Virus record (IMG/VR): IMGVR_UViG_3300007609_000040 | Span: 1 to 45,396 of that record | From: a virus | DNA: 45,396 nucleotides | Strand: one strand, 5' to 3' | Part shown: piece after piece, positions 3,566 to 45,396 of the stretch | How the letters are laid out: the number at the start of each line of letters is the position of its first letter | Position numbering within the stretch: the first letter of the stretch is position 1 | Position numbers and translations under genes: made by a program | The notes under the pieces: model-generated | Database searches by the model: none | Seen by the model: only the letters and a program-made list of their open reading frames with translations | What the model was told of the DNA's origin: nothing

Positions 3566-5737
3566 ATGGAAAAGTTAGAAACAGTATCACGGTACATCAA
3601 ATCAGGTTTAAGTGTTATACCTTGCCTTGATGATAAGAGGCCAGCAATCAGATGGATTAGATACCAAGAAGAGATACCATCTTTCGAATTAATGAAAGAA
3701 ACTTACGCAAAGCATGATAACTTCGCTTTGATATGCGGAAAGGTTTCCGGAGGTATTGAAGTAATCGATGTTGATTGCAAGTATGACTTAACAGGTAAGC
3801 TAGCTTCAAAGCTTAGTAGCATGCTTAAAAAGCAGATAACAGACTTTACTGATAAAGTTGTAGTACAAGAAACAGTAAACAAAGGGTATCACTTGATATA
3901 CCGTTGTGATGAGATACAAGGGAATCAGAAGTTAGCATTCCGAAGTACTACCGAAGAAGAGTTAAAGGAGAACCCTAAAGAAAAAAGAAAAGTTTTAATT
4001 GAAACTAGAGGTGAGAAAGGCTATATCCTTATTCCGCCATCAAAAGGGTACACGGTTACTTCAGGAGACTTGCTTAATATCCAAAAAATAACACCATCGG
4101 AAAGACAAACGATTTTAAGAGCTTGTAAGAGCTTTTCTGAATACGACAAGACAGATGCACTGAATGAGTTAAGGAAAACCCATCAGATGTTAGAAAAAGG
4201 GGGTAATAAGCAATTTAACACCATCAAGTCACCACTAGATGACTACAATGAGAATGGTGATGTTGTTGGTTTACTTCGAAATAATGGCTGGACTGTAGTG
4301 TTTGAGACTAGCGATAAGGTTGCTTTGAAAAGGCCAGGGAACACTAAAGCTAAGCATTCGGCCTACTATGATAAAAACAAAAAGTGGTTTACTGTATTCT
4401 CTAGCTCAACCGAGTTCGAGACTGAGAAAGCCTACCTACCGTATGCGGTTTATGCTGTATTGGAATGTAATAATGATTACGCTGAAGCAGTTAGGAAATT
4501 ATCTGAAGATGGTTACGGTGAAAGCGAAATGATTGAGTCAAGCGATTCATACCAACACTCGCCATCTAAGGTTAAACAAAAACCAAAGTACAACAAATGG
4601 GAGGATATATCTTTCTTAGATGTTGATGAGAGTGATTTTGATCTTAGTGGTGAAGATTTACCTTTCTTATCAAAGGAAGGGGATGAGGATGAGTACTTTG
4701 ATATGATCGAGAATAACGGTTTAGAAATGGGGTTAACTACCGGAATCCCTAAGTTAGACAAGTACTTCAGACATAAGCAAGGTAATTTTGTTATAATCAA
4801 TGGCTTGGATAACGTGGGTAAAACATTCTCCATCAATTATCTTATGGCTTTATGCTCTCTTATCAATAAATGGAAGTTCTTAGCTTTTTGTGCTGAAAAT
4901 AAGGAAGGTCAAATTAGAAGAAACTTTATTCAGTTTGCATCAGGAAAACATTACAACGAGCTTACATCTGAGGGCAAAAAAAAGTGGAGAAAATGGTCTT
5001 ATGATCACTTGTATTTAATCAAGGTTGATGGGATATATAACTACAGAAACCTTTTGGTAATGGCTAAAGAGGTTTGTGATAGAAAACCTGTTAATGCTAT
5101 ATTCATTGATCCTTACAACTCACTTGATATAGACTTATCAAAGGAAGATTCTAGAATGACTGAGCATAACTACCACTACAAAGCTTACACTTACTTTAGA
5201 CAGTTCTGTAGACAGTTTAATGTTTCGATATACTTGAGTATGCACCCTTATACCGGAGCATCTAGAAATACCGACAAGGAAGGTTTTGTTAAACCACCAA
5301 CCAAAGCTGATACTGAAGGAGGTCAGAAAGCAGCTAACAGGGCTGACGATTTTGTAACAATGCACAGGTATGTTGATGATTCAGCTAGAAGAAAAGTGAG
5401 TCAATGGATTGTTAGAAAAATAAAAGATACTGAAACTGGTGGTAGGCCAACATCACCTGAAGAAATTGTCGAGTTAGAACTATATGCTGGATTATGGAGA
5501 TTTAGAGAAAAGGTTACAGGTAAAGATCCGGTTGTGGAATACCACAAAAAAGGATTCGTTCAAAAGGAAGTTGATTTCGATAAAGTTGAACAAGAACAGA
5601 AAAAAGTTATTGAGAAAAAAGAAGAAAGTAAATCGAATGATTTTTATAGTAACAAGACTTTAAAACAAGTAAGTAGGACTATTGATAAGGATTTAGATAT
5701 AAATACTTCTTTTGAAGAGGATGATGTACCTTTCTAA
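3566..5737 (+). CDS. primase-polymerase / DnaB-like helicase fusion
   Basis: A 723-residue protein with two enzyme modules. Residues 1-200 are an archaeo-eukaryotic primase (bifunctional primase/polymerase, N-terminal type): GLSVIPCLDDKRPAI, the metal-binding EVIDVD at 65-70, NKGYHLIYR, and IETRGEKGYILIPPS near 145-159. Residues 380-650 are a RecA-type helicase: TTGIPKLDKYF, Walker A GLDNVGKT at 413-420, Walker B AIFIDP near 511-516, then SMHPYT and the NRADDFVTMHR region. It should synthesise primers and unwind the fork. The last residues, EEDDVPF, resemble the tip of bacterial SSB and are nearly the same as the tail of the phage SSB-like protein at 44260. It follows the initiator gene by 7 bases. 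No phage DNA polymerase is seen nearby. Confidence 0.88.
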   Translation: MEKLETVSRYIKSGLSVIPCLDDKRPAIRWIRYQEEIPSFELMKETYAKHDNFALICGKVSGGIEVIDVDCKYDLTGKLASKLSSMLKKQITDFTDKVVVQETVNKGYHLIYRCDEIQGNQKLAFRSTTEEELKENPKEKRKVLIETRGEKGYILIPPSKGYTVTSGDLLNIQKITPSERQTILRACKSFSEYDKTDALNELRKTHQMLEKGGNKQFNTIKSPLDDYNENGDVVGLLRNNGWTVVFETSDKVALKRPGNTKAKHSAYYDKNKKWFTVFSSSTEFETEKAYLPYAVYAVLECNNDYAEAVRKLSEDGYGESEMIESSDSYQHSPSKVKQKPKYNKWEDISFLDVDESDFDLSGEDLPFLSKEGDEDEYFDMIENNGLEMGLTTGIPKLDKYFRHKQGNFVIINGLDNVGKTFSINYLMALCSLINKWKFLAFCAENKEGQIRRNFIQFASGKHYNELTSEGKKKWRKWSYDHLYLIKVDGIYNYRNLLVMAKEVCDRKPVNAIFIDPYNSLDIDLSKEDSRMTEHNYHYKAYTYFRQFCRQFNVSIYLSMHPYTGASRNTDKEGFVKPPTKADTEGGQKAANRADDFVTMHRYVDDSARRKVSQWIVRKIKDTETGGRPTSPEEIVELELYAGLWRFREKVTGKDPVVEYHKKGFVQKEVDFDKVEQEQKKVIEKKEESKSNDFYSNKTLKQVSRTIDKDLDINTSFEEDDVPF

Positions 5738-28555: not shown

Positions 28556-29001
28556 TGAATAATTCAAGAGAAGAAATAATAAGAGTCATGGAGGCTTCAA
28601 TCGAAGCAAAATGTATAACAGAGGATATAGCTGTAGAAATAAGGGCAGCTCACTATGATCCTAACTTTGATATTATTCATGATTCTGATGGTTCTACTCA
28701 CAATAATTACGCATGGCCTAACGATAGGCACCCTGTATTAGTTTGGCACGATTGGAAAATGAGTCAACTAAAAAAAGAAGTAGGACAAAAACCTAAGTTC
28801 AAAAACTTAAAATCCTTTATCCCTGAAAGGATCAATTACCTAAGACGTAAGTTTGCTTTCGTTAGAGATACTAACCTTCAGTTAAAGAAGATGATGGAAG
28901 CTTACAAACCTATACCTGAGACATACGTTTCAGACCTTGAGAGACACTATTTATCAGTATTCTATAAGGCTACCATATCTAAGTTTCTTTTCGGTAGGTA
29001 G
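28555..29001 (+). CDS. hypothetical protein of the tail region
   Basis: A 148-residue protein with a helical N-terminus (REEIIRVMEASIEAKCITED), a polar middle with His, Asp and Trp (HDSDGSTHNNYAWPNDRHPV, then LVWHDWKMSQL), and a helical, positively charged C-terminus (RINYLRRKFAFVRDTNLQLK). No signal peptide or membrane segment. It is the last gene of the fibre cassette, before the hairpin at 29020-29043. No function recognised. Confidence 0.6.
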   Translation: MNNSREEIIRVMEASIEAKCITEDIAVEIRAAHYDPNFDIIHDSDGSTHNNYAWPNDRHPVLVWHDWKMSQLKKEVGQKPKFKNLKSFIPERINYLRRKFAFVRDTNLQLKKMMEAYKPIPETYVSDLERHYLSVFYKATISKFLFGR

Positions 29002-31628: not shown

Positions 31629-34600
31629 ATGCCAGGTACTAAAGATTTAATAAAAGATTTTTACGCAAAATACGACCCTGAAGCTTACTCAGAAGAAAAG
31701 GTAAAGCAAGTAGAAGATTTTTACAAAGGCGATACTGATAAGTTAATAAAAGACTTCTATGCAAAGTATGACCCTGAATCTTACTCAGAAGAAAAGGTGA
31801 GTAAAGTATCTGAATTTTATGGTTTAAAAAAAAAAGAAGTTTCAGATACAGAATTGGATCCGCAATCGAAAGAATCGGATCAGCAATCGAAAAAGCCGGA
31901 AGAAGAATCAAAGAGGTACACTGAGGACGGTAAGGAAATATTATCATCTTCTGACGACTTAACACCTGAACAGGTAGATGAACTATTTACTGAAAGAAAG
32001 GAAGGCGAAGAGTTGTCTTTCAAAATCGAAGGTAGTGAACCTCAAAAGGTTCAAATGGTTGATGAATACGGAAGATTTGTAGAACCATACAAGGAACCTG
32101 AAAAAGATAAAGGCTTAGAGGCTTATGCTAAAGCTAACGGTTTAGAAGAAAAGCTGCAAGCTAAACTATCTCAAGATAAGCTAAAGCAAGGTAACTACAA
32201 TGACGGTGATCTGTTTACTATAAAGAATCAACAGTATAAAGAGAATCTAGAGAAAAACAAACCTGAAATCAATCAACTTGATTTTGAAATCCAAGAGTTA
32301 GACAAACAGAAAGCTGAACTAGCTGCTGAATATGGTTCTTTAGATAAAGCTCCAAGTGAAGTTGTTGAAAGAATAAACAACAGCCAAGCCCAGTTAAAAC
32401 AAGACAAGGAATCTATAGCTGGTAAAGCACCATCTGAAGAGCTTGTTGAAAAAATAGTTGAAGTTGATTTATTTGAGACTCAATGGGATGAATGGAGTGA
32501 TTTATTTAGTGACCCATTAATGGTAGATAGTGATGCTGGTGAGAACGTTGAAAGGTCTTACTACATGAATCAGCAAAAAGAACTTCTTAAAAATTGGCTT
32601 GAAAGCAATCCTCAAGAAGCTAACAAGCTTATTCAGATGACTGAAAAGGGAATGACTCTAACCAGCAACCAACAGTATGACTTAGTTATGAAAGCTAATT
32701 CATCAATGATTGAAGACGCTAGCTCTAAAATGAAAGACATGGAGCCGGAAGTGGAGTCATACTTATCTGACGTAAAAAAACTAAAGGAAGAGTATCAGTT
32801 AGAGATGAATGGTTTGAAAAATAACCACCCTGAGATATACAAGCTTGTAAACCAACAGGAGCTTACTGAGCAAGATAGGTTAGCTTTACAGCAAAAGGGA
32901 GGCCGTGATTACGTAACCAAACATACAACCCCTTTAAAATCATCTATAGATAGATTAAAGAAAAAGCAAGAAGATCAAGAAGGTATTGAAGAATACCAAA
33001 AACTTGCTTTAAAAAGAAAGGAGTATGCTCAAAACCTTAATGTTTTAATAGGTGGTGATAAAGAGAAGTTAGACGATATGAAGTTAGCTTTTAAATCAAA
33101 GCTAGAAGCTATCGAAGAAGAAAAGGAGTTGAAAAAAGAACTCCAAGAATCACCTGTAAAACAAATGTTTGACGAAACAACTAAGGCAATATATAATTCT
33201 GCGGTTGATTTTTATGGTGGGTCAGTTGATTTAGGTTATATGCTTTATGATAAAGCAGCTAGAGCCACCTATAAAGATGATGATGAGTACACGTATGCTG
33301 ATAAGATGTTTTCCCAAATAAAAGATTATGAAGAAAACGTTATAAAGTTCAGGGAAGCTGAGATGGGTGCTTTAATTGAAGACGGTGAGCTTAACGAGTT
33401 AGCAGTACTACCTACTTTAGCTAGAACAATAACAGACATGATACTGTTAACAAAAGGAGGCAAAGCTGTAAGTGGAACCCCTGGTTTAACGTTAAAGAAC
33501 GCTGTTAAAAATTCTGAACTTATAACAAGATCAATGGTGGCTTCAGCTGATGATTATTACGAGGAAGCTTTAAGATCAGGTTTAGATCAGAGTGATGCTG
33601 TAAATCACGCATTAAGAGCATCTATAACCACAAGTATGCTTGAGTTAGTAAGCCCAGGAGAAACCTTGTTTAAGAAAGGATTGAGGGATGCTAGCTTGAT
33701 ATCTTTAGTTAAAAACTCTAGTAAGCAGGGTATAAGAAAAGAGTTTGCTAAAAACATGGGAAGGGAACTGTTACAGGAAAACCTTCAGGAAGCATTACAG
33801 TTAGGTGGTGATAAGCTTAACAACTTAATCACTAACTATATATCGGATCAAGGAGGTTTAGAGACAGCTGTATCATCAGACGAGATATTAGAAACAGTAT
33901 TACTTACATCTTTAACAGTTGGAGCCATAGGAGGGTTTAACAAGATGACAGGAGGTAATAAAACCCAGGTTGTAAACTCATCTATTTACGAACTAGCTAA
34001 AAACAAGGAGGGTGCTAACAGAGTGATCCAAGAGTTGTCCGACAATAAAACATTAACACCATCTCAAGCTGAATCTTTATTGAAGAACATCGATATAATG
34101 GAACAATCCATTAATGAGGTAGTTGAGAACACAGGAGAAGGCGTTTTAGTAGGTAAAGCTTCAATCCTTAATTATCAGATAAAAGAGCTTTTAGAGAAGC
34201 GGAAATCAATAAAATCTGAAGGGTTGCTTAAATCTAATGCTGAAAAAGTAAGAAACCTACAAACACAATTGGATGCTGTATTAAATTTAGATAAAGCAGT
34301 AAAGGATTCTCAAAAACAAAGTAAACCTGAGAAAACAGTAATACCTTCAGATTCCTTAAAGGAAACTCAAGAGTTTGCTAGAGATGAACAAGTAGATATA
34401 GTTTACAAGGATGCTAACCTTGTGCCTGAAAGATTAAGGGAGTTATCAAAGAATGAGACAACTAATGAAGACGGTGGTGTTACACTATCGTTTGATGGTG
34501 GTACTTTAATTGATAATAACTTAGGTAAAGAAAAGAAACAGGCACCTGAGAAAACTGAAGAAACCACACAGGAAGCTACTGAAGTAACAGAGAATGAAGT

Positions 34601-37600
34601 AACAGAAGAACAAACTCAACAAACTACTGAGCAAGCAACAGAAGAGGTTACAGAGGTAGAAGAGGCGAGTGAAACTTCTGATATACTTAATGCTGAAAAT
34701 TTAGAAACTGAAAAAGGTGTTGAACTAGTAAGTGTTGATAATGATAAAGTCACACTAAAGCTTGATGCTTTAGTTTCAATACCTGAAGATATTAAAGTAA
34801 CTAAATCAGAAGAGAGTCAAGGTTTATTCAAGAAAAGCAAAACATTTAATACTATCACAGTTAGTAAAAATGATGCTATAGAATTAGGTTACATAAAAAA
34901 CAAACCTGAAAATATAGATAAAGAACTTGAAGCTAAAGAACAAGTAGATAACCAAACCACTGAAGAAACCACAACCCCAAAAGAAGAAGTTTCCGATCAA
35001 ACTACAACGCAAGATAACATACCGGAACAGGTTACAGAATTAAAATCTGACGATCAAATCACTTATGATGAAGATGGTGAGAGTAATGCTTTCACGGTTA
35101 AAACATCTGACTTAAATGTAGATCCTGATAGACTACAATACAAAGTTGAAGGTATAGGTAAGGACGGAACTACTGACGCTTTAAAAACAACCAAGAAGTT
35201 TAACAAGGTTGCCGCAGGAATACTAACAGTATGGATAGACCCTAAAGACGGTAAGAAATATGTGGTTAATGGCCACCATAGATTTGGATTAGCTAAAAGA
35301 AACAATGTAGATAATTTATTAGTTAGATTCATTAAAGCTGATACAGCCGAACAAGCAAGATCATTAGGTGCTTTACAAAACATGATGGAAGGTAAAGGTA
35401 CTGAGATTGATGCAGCTAAGTTTATTAGAGATTCCGGAACCACAATAGATGAAATCGCTGAACAAGGTGTAACTTTATCTGATGCTAAAATAGACAAAGC
35501 AGTAAAACTATCTAACCTAACTAAAGAACTGTTTGACTTAGTTGTTAAAGGTAGTTTAAGCGTTAATAAAGCTGCCATGATAGGTGAGCTTGATCCTAAG
35601 ATTCAGGAGGACATTTACAGGACTGTAGGTAACTTCTCAGATAAAGTTGTTAGAGAAGTTGTCAATACAGCTAAGAAAGCTAAAGTAGAAACAACAACCC
35701 AGCAAGATTTATTCGGAACCACTGAAGAATCAAAGTCTAAAGCCATGGAGGTTTTTAAACTTAGATCTGATATTAAAACAAAAATCAGAGGTGATAAGAA
35801 AGCTTTAAGTAACGCTGTTAAGAATAAAGAAAGATTAGAGCAGGCCGGAAACAAGATTGATGTTGAGGGTAGTTTAGACATGAACAAGGATGCTAACATC
35901 CAGGATTCTCTATTTGATAAATTCTCAGACAGAAAAGAATTAACAGACATACTTAACGAGGGTGTTGAGAGATTAGAACAAGCAAAAAATAATAAAGAAA
36001 AATCAAAAATCAAGGAAGAGACTTATGAAAAATACAAGCAAGAACTCCAAAACCAAATCGACAACGCTTTACAAACGGGCAAAAAAGCTAGTGGAAAAGG
36101 AAAAAGCGTGGAAACAAAGTCAGAAGAAAAAAACAAAGTAAAACAATTCGTTAAAGATCAATCAGGGAAAACAATAACTGATGCTGAAGCTGAATACTTA
36201 GTAGAGGAAGGTTACACTAAAGACACCTATGAAGAGCAATTGTTTAAGGCTGGAAGAGAACTAAGACAATCACTAAGGTCTTCAATGAATAACATGTCAA
36301 TCAATCCGGTTAATCCTGAAGTATTATCTAAGCTTGCTAAATACATTAGAGCATGGAGCTTAAAGAATGGAGCCAACTTTAAAGCATTCTTAGCTGACAT
36401 GAAATACAATGCAGCACCATGGCTTAGAGCTTTATTTAAAAGAGCAGCTGTAGCACCAATTAACGGTATAAAGTATGTAGCAGCTAAAGCAAGAGGTAAG
36501 GAATACAAACCAATGTCTTTTGATTCATCTTTAGTTAAAGCTGGTATTAATAACTTCTCAGGTTCCGGTGCTCTAGATTACTATAAAGCCTATCTAAGTG
36601 AGATAAGTGGTTACAAAAACCATGAGGACTTGTTAGCTAGGATAAATAATACGCTTGCTTTAAACTTAGTAGCCCAACAAAGCACAGTAAACAAAAGTGA
36701 GATTGATTCTTTGATTGAAGCTAAGGAAAACTTATTGAACCTTAAAAAGGAAATCAATAAAGCTATCCAAAAGGAAAAGCAAATGGGGATTGGCCAGGAA
36801 TCTGATAAGCTTTTATTTGAAGAAGAATCAATCATTAAGAAACTGATCGAAGGTGAGATTACAGAAGTATCACAATTAGATAACTCGGTATGGAAGCTAC
36901 ATAATGAAACTTTAAGAGAGGTATTTATCAAAAAGATTGTTGATAGGAGAGATCCATTATCAAGAGTATTAAACACAATTGAGAAATGGCACGGTAAAAA
37001 ACTACCTTTCCATTCAAGAGTTGATGCTTTGTTTGATATTCAGGAAGGTAAAGTTGTAGCTAAAACCAATGAAGCTATGGAGTGGTTAGTTGGTAGAAGG
37101 ACGGGGTTACTAGGTAACAAAAGTATAACTAAGGAGTCATTCGCTTACAAATTGAAAAAGGATTTAGGAATGACCTTAGAGGACTTCTCTAAATGGATGC
37201 TTGTTAATCATGTACCTGAAAGGAATCAGCGTTTAGAAGCTTTAGCTGAAGAAAGATTTGCTCAAGAAATTGAAGAACTTGATGCTAAATTAAATTCAGG
37301 TGAGATTGATGCTTCAAACCATAGAGTTCAGTTAGATGACATGCAAAAAAGACATGACAGAGAAAGATTGATTACTAACACCGGTATGACTACTAGTGAT
37401 GCCGAGTTTGCTAAGAGAAAGATTGAAGAGAAGTACGATAGAGATAAACTTGTAGATTTCTACAAGGAATATAAAGAAAACATAATCGATAAACAGATTA
37501 ATGTTTTACGGGATGCTGGAATGCTAAGTAAAGAGCAAGCTGACAATCTTAAAAAAGGTAAAGGTAAAGGAGTTGACTTCCAGTTTTACGTACCAATGAA

Positions 37601-39599
37601 AGTGTTAGGTTCAGTAGTTCAGGATGCTGTTGATTTTAATGCTAAATACAGACCTAATAGAGTTCAAAGTAAATCATCTATAAAATCAATAAGTGTTGAT
37701 GCTAAATCAGGTAAGTTTTCTTTGGATGAAAGAAACAGCCCTATCGCTCAAGGTTTGTTTGACTTGGCTGAGGCTTATAAGTCAGCAGCAATCAATGAGA
37801 ACATTAAGCAGTTATCTAGTATAATCACTCAATTTCCTAACAAGGATGTTTGGTCTACAACGAACAGTCCGGAAATAGCGGATGCTTCAGGAGGAACCAA
37901 GATTCCATTTAAGTATATAGGTAAGGATGGTAATGTTGTCACTAAGTATGTGATGTTGAAAGATGAGAGGCTTGAGAAAGTTTTCATGATAAGTTCACCA
38001 CAAGATAAGCTTACCAAAGCCCTTAAAAACTTACTAGGTGCATTCAATAAGTTCAGTAGAGCTATGTATACTACATTGAATGTATCATTCGGTATTCCTA
38101 ACGCATTCAGAGATATTCAGGATGCCTTGTTTAACTTATCCGGATATGAAGACCCTAAGCTTAGAAGAAAGTTCATGAAAAACCTTGCTTCATCTTATAA
38201 GGGTGTTTTAATGGGGGAGAAAGGGTTTACTGATAAAGGTATGGCTAAACTATATCAAGAGATGATTGATAACGGTGGTACTGTATCATGGGCTGATTTA
38301 AGTGGTGATCCCGATCAAACAATAAAAGACATCAACAAATCTTTACAGTCAGTAAGATTTGATGGCACTATTAAAGGAGGTGCAAGATATGGTGCTGAAG
38401 CTTTAGTGGCTCCAATAGCATTGTTTAACAACGTGCTTGAGCAAGCTACTAGGTTAGCTGTATACAAAACAGCTTTAGACTCAGGTAAATCTAAGGATGA
38501 AGCTGCGCACATGTCTAAGAATACTACTATCAACTTTTCTAAAAAAGGTGAATGGGGATCACTAATCAATACAGTATGGTTATTCTCTAACGCTGGTATT
38601 CAAGGTTTAAATAGAGTTGTTGAAACGCTAAATTCTAAAAGAGGTAGAAAAGCTGCCGCAACATTAGTAGGGTTGGGATTCTCTTATTCAGCTCTTATCC
38701 ATTACTTATTGGATGATGATGAGGAAACAGAGAGATTACTAACCCAGTATGACTATAAGAATAATATAATCCTTCCTTTAGGTGAAGGTAGAGTGTTTAC
38801 TATTCCTAAATCATACTCAGGTTTCAAGCTGTTTTTCAATTTAGGTGAATCTATATTTAAGAATGGTCTTAAAAGTGATTTATCAGCTGTTCCTGGTGAT
38901 TTGTTAGGAGATCTTTACGATCAGATAAATATCATCGGTGGATCATCTGAAGCTACTACAGCTAAACTTATGCCTGAGATAGCTAAACCTTTAGTTGAAA
39001 TCATATCTGATGGTAATAACTACTTTGGTAAGAAGTTTATTCCTCAGTATATGGAAAAGGATAATGTACCTAATAAAGACAAGTATTATAAATCAACAGG
39101 TAATACATTCTTAGGTGAAAAATCTATTGAATTTACAGACATGATTTATGATATTACTGAAGGTGGTGTTGATATAGCTCCGGAAGAGATGTCTCACTTT
39201 ATTACTGGTTACATATACAAAGGTGCCTTAACTGATATAGGTAGGGTTAACGATGTAATAAAAAAGTTATCTAATGGTGAAACTGTTAAGGCTAAAGATG
39301 TACCTATAGCAAGAAGATTCTTTAAGGACTTATCTGAAGAAAAGCATTGGAGATCCTATAAGAAGTTTGACGAGATAGTTAAGGAAGGTATCAATGATGC
39401 TATGTCAGCTAGAGAGATAAAGATGCTTAATGATTTAAGGAAGGATGTTTTAAAGCTAAAATTAGAGTCTAACTACATTAAAACACTAGCTAAAAGAGGT
39501 TATAAAGATACCTACAAAAATCAGTTAAGAATATACACTGAATTTGAAGGTTGGACTAAAGAAGAGTTTAATAAATTTTGGCACGAATCGAAAAAATAA
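31629..39599 (+). CDS. giant internal polyvalent protein with ParB-like and LPD38-like regions
   Basis: A 2656-residue protein, over one sixth of the genome. Residues 7-64 hold two copies of a 32-residue unit (LIKDFYAKYDP, SEEKV). Residues 180-550 are coiled coil. Residues 600-780 are hydrophobic helices ending AIGGFNKM, a possible membrane-active part. Residues 960-1140 are an acidic Thr/Glu linker. Residues 1142-1320 carry a ParB-like domain with the VVNGHHRFGLAKR core near 1210-1224. From about 2142 comes the phage LPD38-type region: NVSFGIPNAFRDIQD, ATRLAVYKTALDSGKSKDEA, TTINFSKKGEW. Polyvalent proteins are delivered with phage or conjugative DNA. Placed after two ejection-type genes, it is probably an internal virion protein injected into the host to act on DNA or host proteins. 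Confidence 0.8.
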   Translation: MPGTKDLIKDFYAKYDPEAYSEEKVKQVEDFYKGDTDKLIKDFYAKYDPESYSEEKVSKVSEFYGLKKKEVSDTELDPQSKESDQQSKKPEEESKRYTEDGKEILSSSDDLTPEQVDELFTERKEGEELSFKIEGSEPQKVQMVDEYGRFVEPYKEPEKDKGLEAYAKANGLEEKLQAKLSQDKLKQGNYNDGDLFTIKNQQYKENLEKNKPEINQLDFEIQELDKQKAELAAEYGSLDKAPSEVVERINNSQAQLKQDKESIAGKAPSEELVEKIVEVDLFETQWDEWSDLFSDPLMVDSDAGENVERSYYMNQQKELLKNWLESNPQEANKLIQMTEKGMTLTSNQQYDLVMKANSSMIEDASSKMKDMEPEVESYLSDVKKLKEEYQLEMNGLKNNHPEIYKLVNQQELTEQDRLALQQKGGRDYVTKHTTPLKSSIDRLKKKQEDQEGIEEYQKLALKRKEYAQNLNVLIGGDKEKLDDMKLAFKSKLEAIEEEKELKKELQESPVKQMFDETTKAIYNSAVDFYGGSVDLGYMLYDKAARATYKDDDEYTYADKMFSQIKDYEENVIKFREAEMGALIEDGELNELAVLPTLARTITDMILLTKGGKAVSGTPGLTLKNAVKNSELITRSMVASADDYYEEALRSGLDQSDAVNHALRASITTSMLELVSPGETLFKKGLRDASLISLVKNSSKQGIRKEFAKNMGRELLQENLQEALQLGGDKLNNLITNYISDQGGLETAVSSDEILETVLLTSLTVGAIGGFNKMTGGNKTQVVNSSIYELAKNKEGANRVIQELSDNKTLTPSQAESLLKNIDIMEQSINEVVENTGEGVLVGKASILNYQIKELLEKRKSIKSEGLLKSNAEKVRNLQTQLDAVLNLDKAVKDSQKQSKPEKTVIPSDSLKETQEFARDEQVDIVYKDANLVPERLRELSKNETTNEDGGVTLSFDGGTLIDNNLGKEKKQAPEKTEETTQEATEVTENEVTEEQTQQTTEQATEEVTEVEEASETSDILNAENLETEKGVELVSVDNDKVTLKLDALVSIPEDIKVTKSEESQGLFKKSKTFNTITVSKNDAIELGYIKNKPENIDKELEAKEQVDNQTTEETTTPKEEVSDQTTTQDNIPEQVTELKSDDQITYDEDGESNAFTVKTSDLNVDPDRLQYKVEGIGKDGTTDALKTTKKFNKVAAGILTVWIDPKDGKKYVVNGHHRFGLAKRNNVDNLLVRFIKADTAEQARSLGALQNMMEGKGTEIDAAKFIRDSGTTIDEIAEQGVTLSDAKIDKAVKLSNLTKELFDLVVKGSLSVNKAAMIGELDPKIQEDIYRTVGNFSDKVVREVVNTAKKAKVETTTQQDLFGTTEESKSKAMEVFKLRSDIKTKIRGDKKALSNAVKNKERLEQAGNKIDVEGSLDMNKDANIQDSLFDKFSDRKELTDILNEGVERLEQAKNNKEKSKIKEETYEKYKQELQNQIDNALQTGKKASGKGKSVETKSEEKNKVKQFVKDQSGKTITDAEAEYLVEEGYTKDTYEEQLFKAGRELRQSLRSSMNNMSINPVNPEVLSKLAKYIRAWSLKNGANFKAFLADMKYNAAPWLRALFKRAAVAPINGIKYVAAKARGKEYKPMSFDSSLVKAGINNFSGSGALDYYKAYLSEISGYKNHEDLLARINNTLALNLVAQQSTVNKSEIDSLIEAKENLLNLKKEINKAIQKEKQMGIGQESDKLLFEEESIIKKLIEGEITEVSQLDNSVWKLHNETLREVFIKKIVDRRDPLSRVLNTIEKWHGKKLPFHSRVDALFDIQEGKVVAKTNEAMEWLVGRRTGLLGNKSITKESFAYKLKKDLGMTLEDFSKWMLVNHVPERNQRLEALAEERFAQEIEELDAKLNSGEIDASNHRVQLDDMQKRHDRERLITNTGMTTSDAEFAKRKIEEKYDRDKLVDFYKEYKENIIDKQINVLRDAGMLSKEQADNLKKGKGKGVDFQFYVPMKVLGSVVQDAVDFNAKYRPNRVQSKSSIKSISVDAKSGKFSLDERNSPIAQGLFDLAEAYKSAAINENIKQLSSIITQFPNKDVWSTTNSPEIADASGGTKIPFKYIGKDGNVVTKYVMLKDERLEKVFMISSPQDKLTKALKNLLGAFNKFSRAMYTTLNVSFGIPNAFRDIQDALFNLSGYEDPKLRRKFMKNLASSYKGVLMGEKGFTDKGMAKLYQEMIDNGGTVSWADLSGDPDQTIKDINKSLQSVRFDGTIKGGARYGAEALVAPIALFNNVLEQATRLAVYKTALDSGKSKDEAAHMSKNTTINFSKKGEWGSLINTVWLFSNAGIQGLNRVVETLNSKRGRKAAATLVGLGFSYSALIHYLLDDDEETERLLTQYDYKNNIILPLGEGRVFTIPKSYSGFKLFFNLGESIFKNGLKSDLSAVPGDLLGDLYDQINIIGGSSEATTAKLMPEIAKPLVEIISDGNNYFGKKFIPQYMEKDNVPNKDKYYKSTGNTFLGEKSIEFTDMIYDITEGGVDIAPEEMSHFITGYIYKGALTDIGRVNDVIKKLSNGETVKAKDVPIARRFFKDLSEEKHWRSYKKFDEIVKEGINDAMSAREIKMLNDLRKDVLKLKLESNYIKTLAKRGYKDTYKNQLRIYTEFEGWTKEEFNKFWHESKK
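31647..31820 (+). repeat. tandem 96-bp repeat at the start of the giant gene
   Basis: Two adjoining units start at 31647 and 31743. The encoded residues LIKDFYAKYDPE and YSEEKV are the same in both, while the third codon positions have drifted, showing an old duplication kept at the protein level. Confidence 0.75.
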
Positions 39600-40044: not shown

Positions 40045-40049
40045 GTTTT

Positions 40050-40091
40050 ATTGATTTTTATTATATTGCAATTAAATATTTAAAAATCAAT
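40050..40091. repeat. 11-bp perfect inverted repeat before the endolysin gene
   Basis: ATTGATTTTTA (40050-40060) and TAAAAATCAAT (40081-40091) are exact complements separated by 20 bases, just upstream of the endolysin ATG at 40100. All-AT stems make a weak RNA hairpin, so a protein-binding dyad or simply an AT-rich leader are both possible. Confidence 0.45.
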
Positions 40092-40099
40092 TAACTGAA

Positions 40100-40600
40100 A
40101 TGAGCAAGCAGAAATATTTCTTTGGTACAAGAAGTAAAAGGGTTAAAGAAACCCTTCATGAAGATCTCCAATTAATACTTGATTTAACAATCAATAGAAC
40201 CTACACCGATGTAGGACTACACGAAGGAGCTAGAAGTATAGAAACCCAACGAAAATACTTTAAAGACGGTAAATCTAGGATCAACCCTGATATGTATGTT
40301 AGCAAACATGATTTATGTAAGCTAGCAAAACACATAGTTATACCAGGTGATACTTACTTTGGTAAATCAAGAGCTGTAGATTTGCACGTATCTGAAAGAC
40401 ATGGTGATACTAAGTTAACATGGGATAAAGCACACCTTTGTTATTTAGCTGGTGTTATCCAATCTTGTGCACAAGAGCTTTACGAAAAAGGATTAGTATC
40501 ACATCTAGTTAGATGGGGTGGTGATTGGAATATGAATGGAATTATCTCACTAGATCAATCACTTGATGATTTAGTACATTTTGAATTATACATACCTTAA
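40100..40600 (+). CDS. endolysin, M15-type L-alanyl-D-glutamate peptidase
   Basis: A 166-residue enzyme expected to cut the peptide stem of peptidoglycan at lysis. It shows the family plan: FGTRSKRVKETLHEDLQ at the start, the VGLHEGARSIETQRKYF segment, zinc ligands H70 (in VSKH), D94 (in SRAVDLH) and H160 (in VHFELY), with E162 next to the last ligand. In most relatives the first His and the Asp are only seven residues apart (SxHxxGxAxD); here they are 24 apart because of an insertion. There is no signal peptide, so release depends on a holin, candidates for which flank it. Start ATG at 40100. Confidence 0.85.
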   Translation: MSKQKYFFGTRSKRVKETLHEDLQLILDLTINRTYTDVGLHEGARSIETQRKYFKDGKSRINPDMYVSKHDLCKLAKHIVIPGDTYFGKSRAVDLHVSERHGDTKLTWDKAHLCYLAGVIQSCAQELYEKGLVSHLVRWGGDWNMNGIISLDQSLDDLVHFELYIP

Positions 40601-41602: not shown

Positions 41603-41634
41603 AAACCACTACAATTTTACGTAGTGGTTTTTTT
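41603..41634 (+). terminator. rho-independent terminator of the late unit
   Basis: AAACCACTAC (41603-41612) pairs perfectly with GTAGTGGTTT (41621-41630) around an 8-base loop; seven T at 41628-41634. It closes the long unit that includes tail, ejection and lysis genes. Confidence 0.92.
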
Positions 41635-41658
41635 ATTTAAAATTTTTCTTTATATTTG
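41628..41658 (+). promoter_or_regulatory. Bacteroidota-type promoter of the early/recombination unit
   Basis: TATATTTG at 41651-41658 fits TAnnTTTG and is the same octamer as at 1633-1640. The -33 position (about 41628-41631) falls on the T run of the preceding terminator (TTTT in place of TTTG). The predicted transcript start near 41665 leaves only a very short leader before the ATG at 41670 or 41676. Confidence 0.72.
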
Positions 41659-44259: not shown

Positions 44260-45138
44260 ATGAGCTGGAAAGACAGACTACAAAATGCACAAGGCACAAA
44301 AGATGCTGCACCAAAGCTAGGTGTTATCATGCACCTAGAGATTAAGAAAAACGAAAACAGAGACAATGAACCTGGTTTCTCCTATTCTAAGAAGAATGAA
44401 TCCACAGGTGATTGGGAAACTAAGTTTATCCATAAACCTATCTCAGGGATCTATTTAGGTCACTCTATGAGGTTAACTATTTTTGATGATGACTTAGGTA
44501 AGAGTGGTGGAACCTACAAGTCAGACTACTATTGGGATAGTAAAAACGTTAAGCTTTTCAATCCTATATCACGTAAAGTTGAAGTAAGTGGTGATATGGA
44601 AGAGATTAATAAGTTTGCTGCGAAATGCACAGGGAATCCTTCTAAAAAGCAAGTAATATTTTTACTTACTAAGCAAGGTATTATTACTGTAACTACAAAC
44701 CTTTCAATTGCTATCGATCAGTTAGGTAACATCTCTAGAGATGATAAGGTTGGTAAATTATTAGTTTTATCACCTAGTATACTGAATGATGATTCAGCTG
44801 TATCGAATAAAGCAAAGGGTTACTTAGGTAAATTCATTAAGAAAAACCCACCTTTATTTGCTGATATTAAAACAGGTAGTGAGATTACTGATGAGGATGC
44901 AAACATATACCGTATTGAGCATTACATCGATGTATTTACTACATGGTTAGAATACAAGCAAGGTGTTAGAGAGACTCCTGGTGTTATCGATGGTGCAAAC
45001 CCTAGTTCTTACAATCCTCATGAAATAAATAGACTTGATGATGATACTGATGCTGATAACGGAGAGCCTTTCACAAGTAAGCAAGCTCCGGCAGATGTGC
45101 CATCACCTGAAGAGGAAGAAGATGATTTACCATTCTAG
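44260..45138 (+). CDS. single-stranded DNA-binding-like protein with SSB-type acidic tail
   Basis: A 292-residue protein. Residues 10-200 are beta-rich with aromatic strands (KLGVIMHLEIKKNENRDNEP; DWETKFIHKPISGIYLGHSM; QVIFLLTKQGIITVTTNL), in keeping with an OB-like core. After residue 235 the chain becomes disordered and acidic and ends PSPEEEEDDLPF. The last residues match the protein-recruiting tip of bacterial SSB (DDxPF). It probably coats single-stranded DNA and recruits helicase, nucleases and host factors. It is the last gene before the structured RNA at 45149-45202. The core family was not recognised; the call rests on tail, size and neighbours. Confidence 0.7.
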   Translation: MSWKDRLQNAQGTKDAAPKLGVIMHLEIKKNENRDNEPGFSYSKKNESTGDWETKFIHKPISGIYLGHSMRLTIFDDDLGKSGGTYKSDYYWDSKNVKLFNPISRKVEVSGDMEEINKFAAKCTGNPSKKQVIFLLTKQGIITVTTNLSIAIDQLGNISRDDKVGKLLVLSPSILNDDSAVSNKAKGYLGKFIKKNPPLFADIKTGSEITDEDANIYRIEHYIDVFTTWLEYKQGVRETPGVIDGANPSSYNPHEINRLDDDTDADNGEPFTSKQAPADVPSPEEEEDDLPF

Positions 45139-45148
45139 AAATTAAAAC

Positions 45149-45202
45149 AACCACCACAGGTATTTGTCTTACTTGCTTGTGGTGGTTAATAAAAAGTAAG
45201 AC
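45149..45202 (+). promoter_or_regulatory. two interleaved stems, pseudoknot or switch, upstream of the DUF3310 gene
   Basis: Stem 1: AACCACCACA (45149-45158) and TGTGGTGGTT (45178-45187), ten perfect pairs. Stem 2: GTCTTACTT (45166-45174), inside the loop of stem 1, and AAGTAAGAC (45194-45202), nine perfect pairs. The order is that of an H-type pseudoknot with connecting segments of 7, 3 and 6 bases. Stem 1 has no T tract after it, so it is not an ordinary terminator. It lies in an 83-base gap, 19 bases before the next ATG. It could control the downstream gene or work at the DNA level. Confidence 0.7.
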
Positions 45203-45221
45203 GATTACAAATTATTTAAGT

Positions 45222-45396
45222 ATGATTGAAAATCAAATGAATGTGAATACGGTTAGTAATTTCACTCCGTTTTGGGAAAAGAGTATTGCTAATTTAGATT
45301 CAGCTAAGAAGTATGCTGAGTTAGTTTTAAAATCAAAATCAGTATCACCTACTTATTACGATACTCCGGAAGAGGTTTTATTTGCTATGCAATACG
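45222..45396 (+). CDS. DUF3310 protein, N-terminal part (gene split by window ends)
   Basis: An open frame from ATG 45222 to the window end, 58 codons plus one base. It begins MIENQMNVNTVSNFTPFWEK and ends TPEEVLFAMQY. Continued from base 1 of the window it stays open and becomes the DUF3310 domain described at 1-239, total 137 residues. The N-terminal part (PTYYDTPEEVLFAMQ) is the helical lead found before DUF3310 in other phages. It follows the interleaved stems at 45149-45202. Confidence 0.85.
   Translation, partial: MIENQMNVNTVSNFTPFWEKSIANLDSAKKYAELVLKSKSVSPTYYDTPEEVLFAMQY

Follow-up and report, generated by a model that had tools for sequence, protein, structure and literature searches.

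The 83-nt gap at 45139-45221 on the plus strand of this phage (positions are those of the window, the whole stretch of 45,396 nucleotides that was analysed) contains two perfect interleaved stems, and this raises the question of whether they form a genuine RNA structure and what such a structure would do to the message around it. The gap separates a gene for a 292-aa protein upstream (44260-45138) from a DUF3310 gene downstream, whose ATG is at 45222. In the first stem, S1, the 5' arm AACCACCACA (45149-45158) forms 10 Watson-Crick pairs with the 3' arm TGTGGTGGTT (45178-45187) around a 19-nt loop (45159-45177), and in the second, S2, GTCTTACTT (45166-45174), which lies within that loop, forms 9 Watson-Crick pairs with AAGTAAGAC (45194-45202). 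The element begins 10 nt past the stop codon of the 292-aa gene and its last base is at -20 relative to the DUF3310 ATG. Loop 1 (45159-45165) reads GGTATTT, the first four bases of which allow S1 to be extended by G-U, G-C, U-G and A-U pairs, while loop 3 (45188-45193) is the A-rich AATAAA, which is without a T-tract and would cross the shallow groove of S1. By complementarity only, these are the two interleaved helices of an H-type pseudoknot, and the stem lengths, coordinates and H-type layout given in the initial annotation, together with its 83-base gap between an SSB-like gene and a DUF3310 gene, are all borne out.

Of 800 dinucleotide-shuffled whole genomes, none contained a perfect stem of at least 9 bp interleaved with one of at least 10 bp inside 60 nt (a stem sum of at least 18 was reached in 4 of the 800), and only one other interleaved pair at 8/8 or better occurs in the real window (8/8 at 39225-39308). 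The initial annotation had called the arrangement hard to explain by chance, and this stands for the two stems combined but is weaker for S2 once S1 is given. The probability of S2 given S1 was about 0.01 when the loop and downstream sequence were shuffled and a 9-base loop complement was sought within the next 35 nt, 0.006 against real genome 35-mers holding a 9-base complement, and 0.005 when real genome windows were scored for a duplex energy at least as good. S2 is only such a 0.5-1% event given S1 because the S1 loop is 68% pyrimidine and the plus (coding) strand is 57% purine, and for that reason it may be incidental. With S1 strong and S2 at this level, a structured RNA in the gap is well supported, and closure of S2 on S1 into a pseudoknot is suggestive, not secure, as judged from base complementarity. 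The S2 3' arm AAGTAAGAC is present in 9 copies genome-wide compared to 0.67 expected from a second-order Markov model, in mixed frames, but it was rejected as a repeat element as other 9-mers are equally frequent and its sites have no common context. The 9-mer AAGTATGAC, with 10 copies, is like it more than 10-fold above the second-order Markov expectation genome-wide.

Computed folding agrees that the gap is structured, with a z of -4.29 for the gap against dinucleotide shuffles and of -3.65 for a 101-nt stretch, and the plus strand folds better (-22.9 kcal/mol) than the minus strand (-16.2 kcal/mol). The minimum-energy fold lacks S2 and consists of S1 with its wobble extension (14 pairs, -21.5 kcal/mol). 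S1 and S2, at 10 and 9 bp, have no nucleotide in common and S2 competes only with the 14th pair of the wobble-extended S1, so the proposal that the two hairpins exclude each other is unnecessary; in order of transcription, S1 is finished before the S2 3' arm emerges. In an ideal A-form model the 7 nt of loop 1 cross the deep groove of S2 easily, and the 6 nt of loop 3 need to span some 37-40 Å across the shallow groove of a 10-bp S1, where 6 nt can reach about 42-49 Å, making this loop nearly taut but possible at 10 bp and uncomfortable at 14 bp. Pairing and modelled geometry would hence make an H-type pseudoknot with both stems possible. The S2 stacking energy is -14.1 kcal/mol and the summed stacks are -34.5 for the pseudoknot before any loop penalty, compared to -21.5 for the extended hairpin. 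Since S2 stacking roughly offsets the usual pseudoknot penalty plus the loss of the four upper S1 pairs, and since loop 3 is uncomfortably short once S1 has 14 pairs, the two forms are predicted to be close in energy, and the choice between them may hinge on Mg2+ or a protein. A strong AT-rich hairpin without a T-tract also lies at 40045-40099 (z -4.15), just upstream of the gene at 40100-40600, and is the strongest non-terminator-like gap hairpin besides the element.

The phage is poorly known, with Bacteroidota-type signals, genes on the plus strand and gene leaders without Shine-Dalgarno sequences. The DUF3310 gene runs from 45222 to 45396 on the plus strand and its frame continues into bases 1-239 of the window (position 45396 and bases 1-2 make up a split GCA codon, after which the frame is open to 239). 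As the ends join in frame through this gene, the 45,396-base record is, on the sequence as assembled, complete and circular or circularly permuted, though each end cuts the DUF3310 gene. The joined protein of 137 aa matches PF11753 (E 3.6e-8; the match on 21-197 alone scores 35 bits), so the guess that the downstream gene encodes DUF3310 was right. An intrinsic terminator hairpin with a T-tract (41603-41630) followed by the promoter motif TATATTTG (41651-41658) forms a cassette at 41603-41658 on the plus strand, and a second at 1564-1640 comprises a terminator (1564-1588) with its T-tract and a promoter motif (1633-1640), the hairpin and motif being 20 nt apart in the first and 44 nt apart in the second. 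The motif is of the TAnnTTTG, Bacteroidota type, its only copies in gaps are those at 41651 and 1633, and it is absent from the element's own gap (45139-45221). Because these terminator and TATATTTG pairs bracket a run of plus-strand genes, we infer that 41670 to 1488 across the join is a single operon, starting after the first cassette and ending at the second, with the element internal to it. The two cassettes thus appear to bound a recombination operon, in the order small gene, RecE-like exonuclease (phrog_434, YqaJ), two genes, SSB-like gene, element, DUF3310 and four small genes, which include an HTH regulator. The element was also considered as an origin of replication and rejected, as each 2-kb window has a positive GC skew, without a turning point there.

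The 292-aa protein upstream had been called SSB-like; family, PDB and structure tests left an SSB identity unconfirmed, the DDLPF tail being its sole basis. It gave no match in Pfam, PHROGs, NCBIfam or the PDB and no homologue in viral contigs, phages, genome contigs or 35 + 15 terminase- and capsid-relative records, and its AlphaFold2 model, predicted without homologues, has a mean pLDDT of 36, too poor for a structure search. Its acidic C-terminus, EEEEDDLPF, makes it SSB-like by tail alone. SSBs typically have such a DDLPF tail, but judged from the protein ends in this phage and its relatives it is not diagnostic of one, because the phage's own primase ends DDVPF, and the last residues of a large ORF in one relative and of a partial ORF in another (L047 and L051) are DDDLPF. 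That primase, encoded at 3566-5737, is a Prim-Pol-type primase/helicase with the C-terminus FEEDDVPF, an SSB-like tip, and DDxPF ends may be a docking tip common to replication proteins.

Among the relatives that could be found, the best share 47% identity in terminase and 61% in capsid, and none of the 43 loci in a capsid alignment scan was closer than 61%. Both the SSB-like gene and DUF3310 are absent from the searched terminase- and capsid-relative records, including 15 whole records from the capsid scan, and single-sequence scans of viral contigs with the RecE-like protein, primase and capsid gave no match. RecE-like homologues in three relatives have different genes downstream, and in Tenacibaculum phage Larrie a DUF3310 gene is present next to an unrelated upstream gene, which reads as an exonuclease, with a gap of 1 nt. 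DNA patterns of the element, exact and gapped, had no match in viral contigs, nor did gapped patterns in genome contigs, and in 1.2 Mb of relatives no comparable interleaved stems were found at the homologous place, the few interleaved pairs there being scattered and partly copies of a single locus. Elsewhere in the phage, a single gene downstream of the structural genes (31629-39599) encodes 2,656 aa, with a relative of 27% identity in L064 (G014), and its product is possibly a virion-carried multi-domain protein.

All arms of S1 and S2 lie upstream of -19 relative to the DUF3310 start. They are followed by a 19-nt leader, GATTACAAATTATTTAAGT, and an ordinary ATG preceded by A at -3, and in the computed ensemble the last 8 bases through the ATG are mostly unpaired (at least 0.88). 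The translational switch that the initial annotation had suggested is therefore unsupported and unlikely in a form that hides the start, because S1 and S2 are not bound to be alternatives and the DUF3310 start lies outside both. Starts in Flavobacterium johnsoniae have a low-structure zone from -20 to +20 (PMC6847099). The element may stop where such a zone begins for DUF3310, at -20, though coincidence is possible.

It is possible, if rather unlikely, that the S1 hairpin alone is functional, as a stabiliser or the relic of a terminator, and that S2 arose by chance from a loop rich in pyrimidines within a message rich in purines. The 0.5-1% probability of S2 given S1 and the base bias behind it would allow this, with many hairpins per genome in which an S2-like complement could be noticed, and extended S1 by itself is the minimum-energy fold. 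The loop also pairs equally well or better with unrelated sites at 28741, 241, 19411 and 26461. One complementary stretch lies at the start of the gene at 248-718 (255-269, AGTAAGTAAGACA; about 13-14 pairs, -18.2 kcal/mol), and although this is the best of 39 starts, a long-range pairing with it was rejected as other genome windows do equally well or better. Against a chance S2 are the absence of the combined stems from all 800 shuffled genomes and the fact that S2 is perfect, nearby and starts after a 6-nt A-rich loop; the second stem of many real H-type pseudoknots begins after a short A-rich loop. A role in transcription, with S1 as a terminator-type hairpin minus its T-tract or as a factor-dependent pause or termination site lowering DUF3310 transcription, is unlikely. 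The S1 core is of the CCACC/GGTGG type with A and T at its base, like the terminators at 1564, 15922 and 41603, and the phage's five terminators (1564, 14945, 15922, 29018 and 41603) as a group resemble the element in stem core and in A/T at the stem base. The element differs from them in its 19-nt loop, its second, interleaved stem and its missing T-tract, the AATAAAAAGT after its stem holding 2 T in 10 compared to 5-9 T per 10 bases after the stems of the five, and a terminator scan called it on neither strand. The initial suggestion of an attenuator is thus ruled out for one of the intrinsic kind. On the minus strand the 10-bp stem is followed by GTTTTAATTT, but a terminator in that direction was rejected too as no minus-strand gene is evident.

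The initial annotation had also compared the locus to the autoregulation of T4 gp32, an analogy that is weak. In T4, gene 32 itself is preceded by a pseudoknot of about 28 nt and then by a leader longer than 40 nt that carries UUAAA/UAAA repeats (PMC535899), and this pseudoknot has been reviewed as possibly the sole viral pseudoknot in translational autoregulation (PMC3014915). By analogy, the SSB-like or another protein could nucleate on the pseudoknot, spread over the A/U-rich leader and repress DUF3310, which we regard as quite unlikely. Like the gene 32 operators of T4, T2 and RB69, the element would place an H-type pseudoknot ahead of an A/U-rich leader without structure and a start codon (PMC535899, PMC3014915), in a phage replication/recombination region, and the gene adjoining it is SSB-like, its product having an SSB-type acidic tail. 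Unlike them, it sits behind the SSB-like gene and in front of another one, DUF3310; its stems are longer (10 and 9 bp, in a 54-nt pseudoknot), its leader is 19 nt and it has a single UUUAA and no UUAAA repeats. There is no sequence relation, and the adjoining protein, whose SSB identity no search supported, shares its DDxPF tail with the primase and the relatives' ORFs. The element may work like the gene 32 operator but is not a member of that family. That an intercistronic pseudoknot is read by the phage's recombination or SSB-like protein and controls genes downstream of that protein's own is improbable. Recoding, in which the pseudoknot would stimulate -1 frameshifting or stop readthrough and fuse the SSB-like protein to DUF3310, is very improbable: DUF3310 is in the -1 frame with respect to the 292-aa gene, that frame meets no stop across the gap as far back as 45126, and the 10 nt from stop codon to stem would suit it, but on direct reading the overlap GAT TTA CCA TTC TAG (GATGATTTACCATTCTAG) has no X_XXY_YYZ slippery heptamer, readthrough of the TAG runs onto an in-frame TAA just where S1 ends, and DUF3310 has its own ordinary start. 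The H-type layout and A-rich loop 3 would also fit a known riboswitch-like pseudoknot such as preQ1 or SAM-II, the remotest of these explanations, as no Rfam family reached its gathering score in the window and matches in 45080-45300 were at chance level (E 1.8 or worse).

The gap probably contains a genuine RNA structure, an unusually strong hairpin with a plausible H-type closure, that affects how the surrounding message is used, and we tentatively favour an operon-internal mRNA structure acting after transcription, as a decay barrier or insulator. This is preferred because the stems are real and rare, the gap folds well and better on the plus than on the minus strand, it is internal to a bracketed operon without a TAnnTTTG of its own, the element fits between the ribosome positions and the geometry permits both stems. 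Just past the SSB-like gene's stop codon a stable S1 hairpin of up to 14 pairs would arise, whose loop would go on to form S2 with the following 9 bases and so lock a compact H-type pseudoknot. The most likely job of the element would be to part the message into halves, stopping 3'-to-5' decay of the recombination segment from the RecE-like exonuclease to the SSB-like gene or, alternatively, serving as a processing point. The genes upstream and downstream would be left at unequal expression levels, with the DUF3310 start open. REP-like and intercistronic stabilising or processing hairpins are similar in that they, too, place a strong stem closely behind a stop codon in a polycistronic message, without a T-tract. 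The element differs from them in that a complement to 9 bases of its loop lies immediately downstream and could close a pseudoknot, and from REP-like hairpins in that its S1 stem sequence is single-copy in the genome and belongs to no repeat family.

Were the element read by the neighbouring protein, the gene 32 principle would gain a second and unrelated example, acting on the next gene and not on the protein's own, and in a non-Shine-Dalgarno (Bacteroidota-type) translation setting. A second case of a pseudoknot in translational autoregulation would be useful, though at present this one is a single sequence without comparative support. The ribosomes of this group ignore Shine-Dalgarno sequences and so mRNA structure near starts carries more control. 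Should the pseudoknot form and have a role, it would be a structured control element internal to an operon, in a phage whose early genes are without close relatives.
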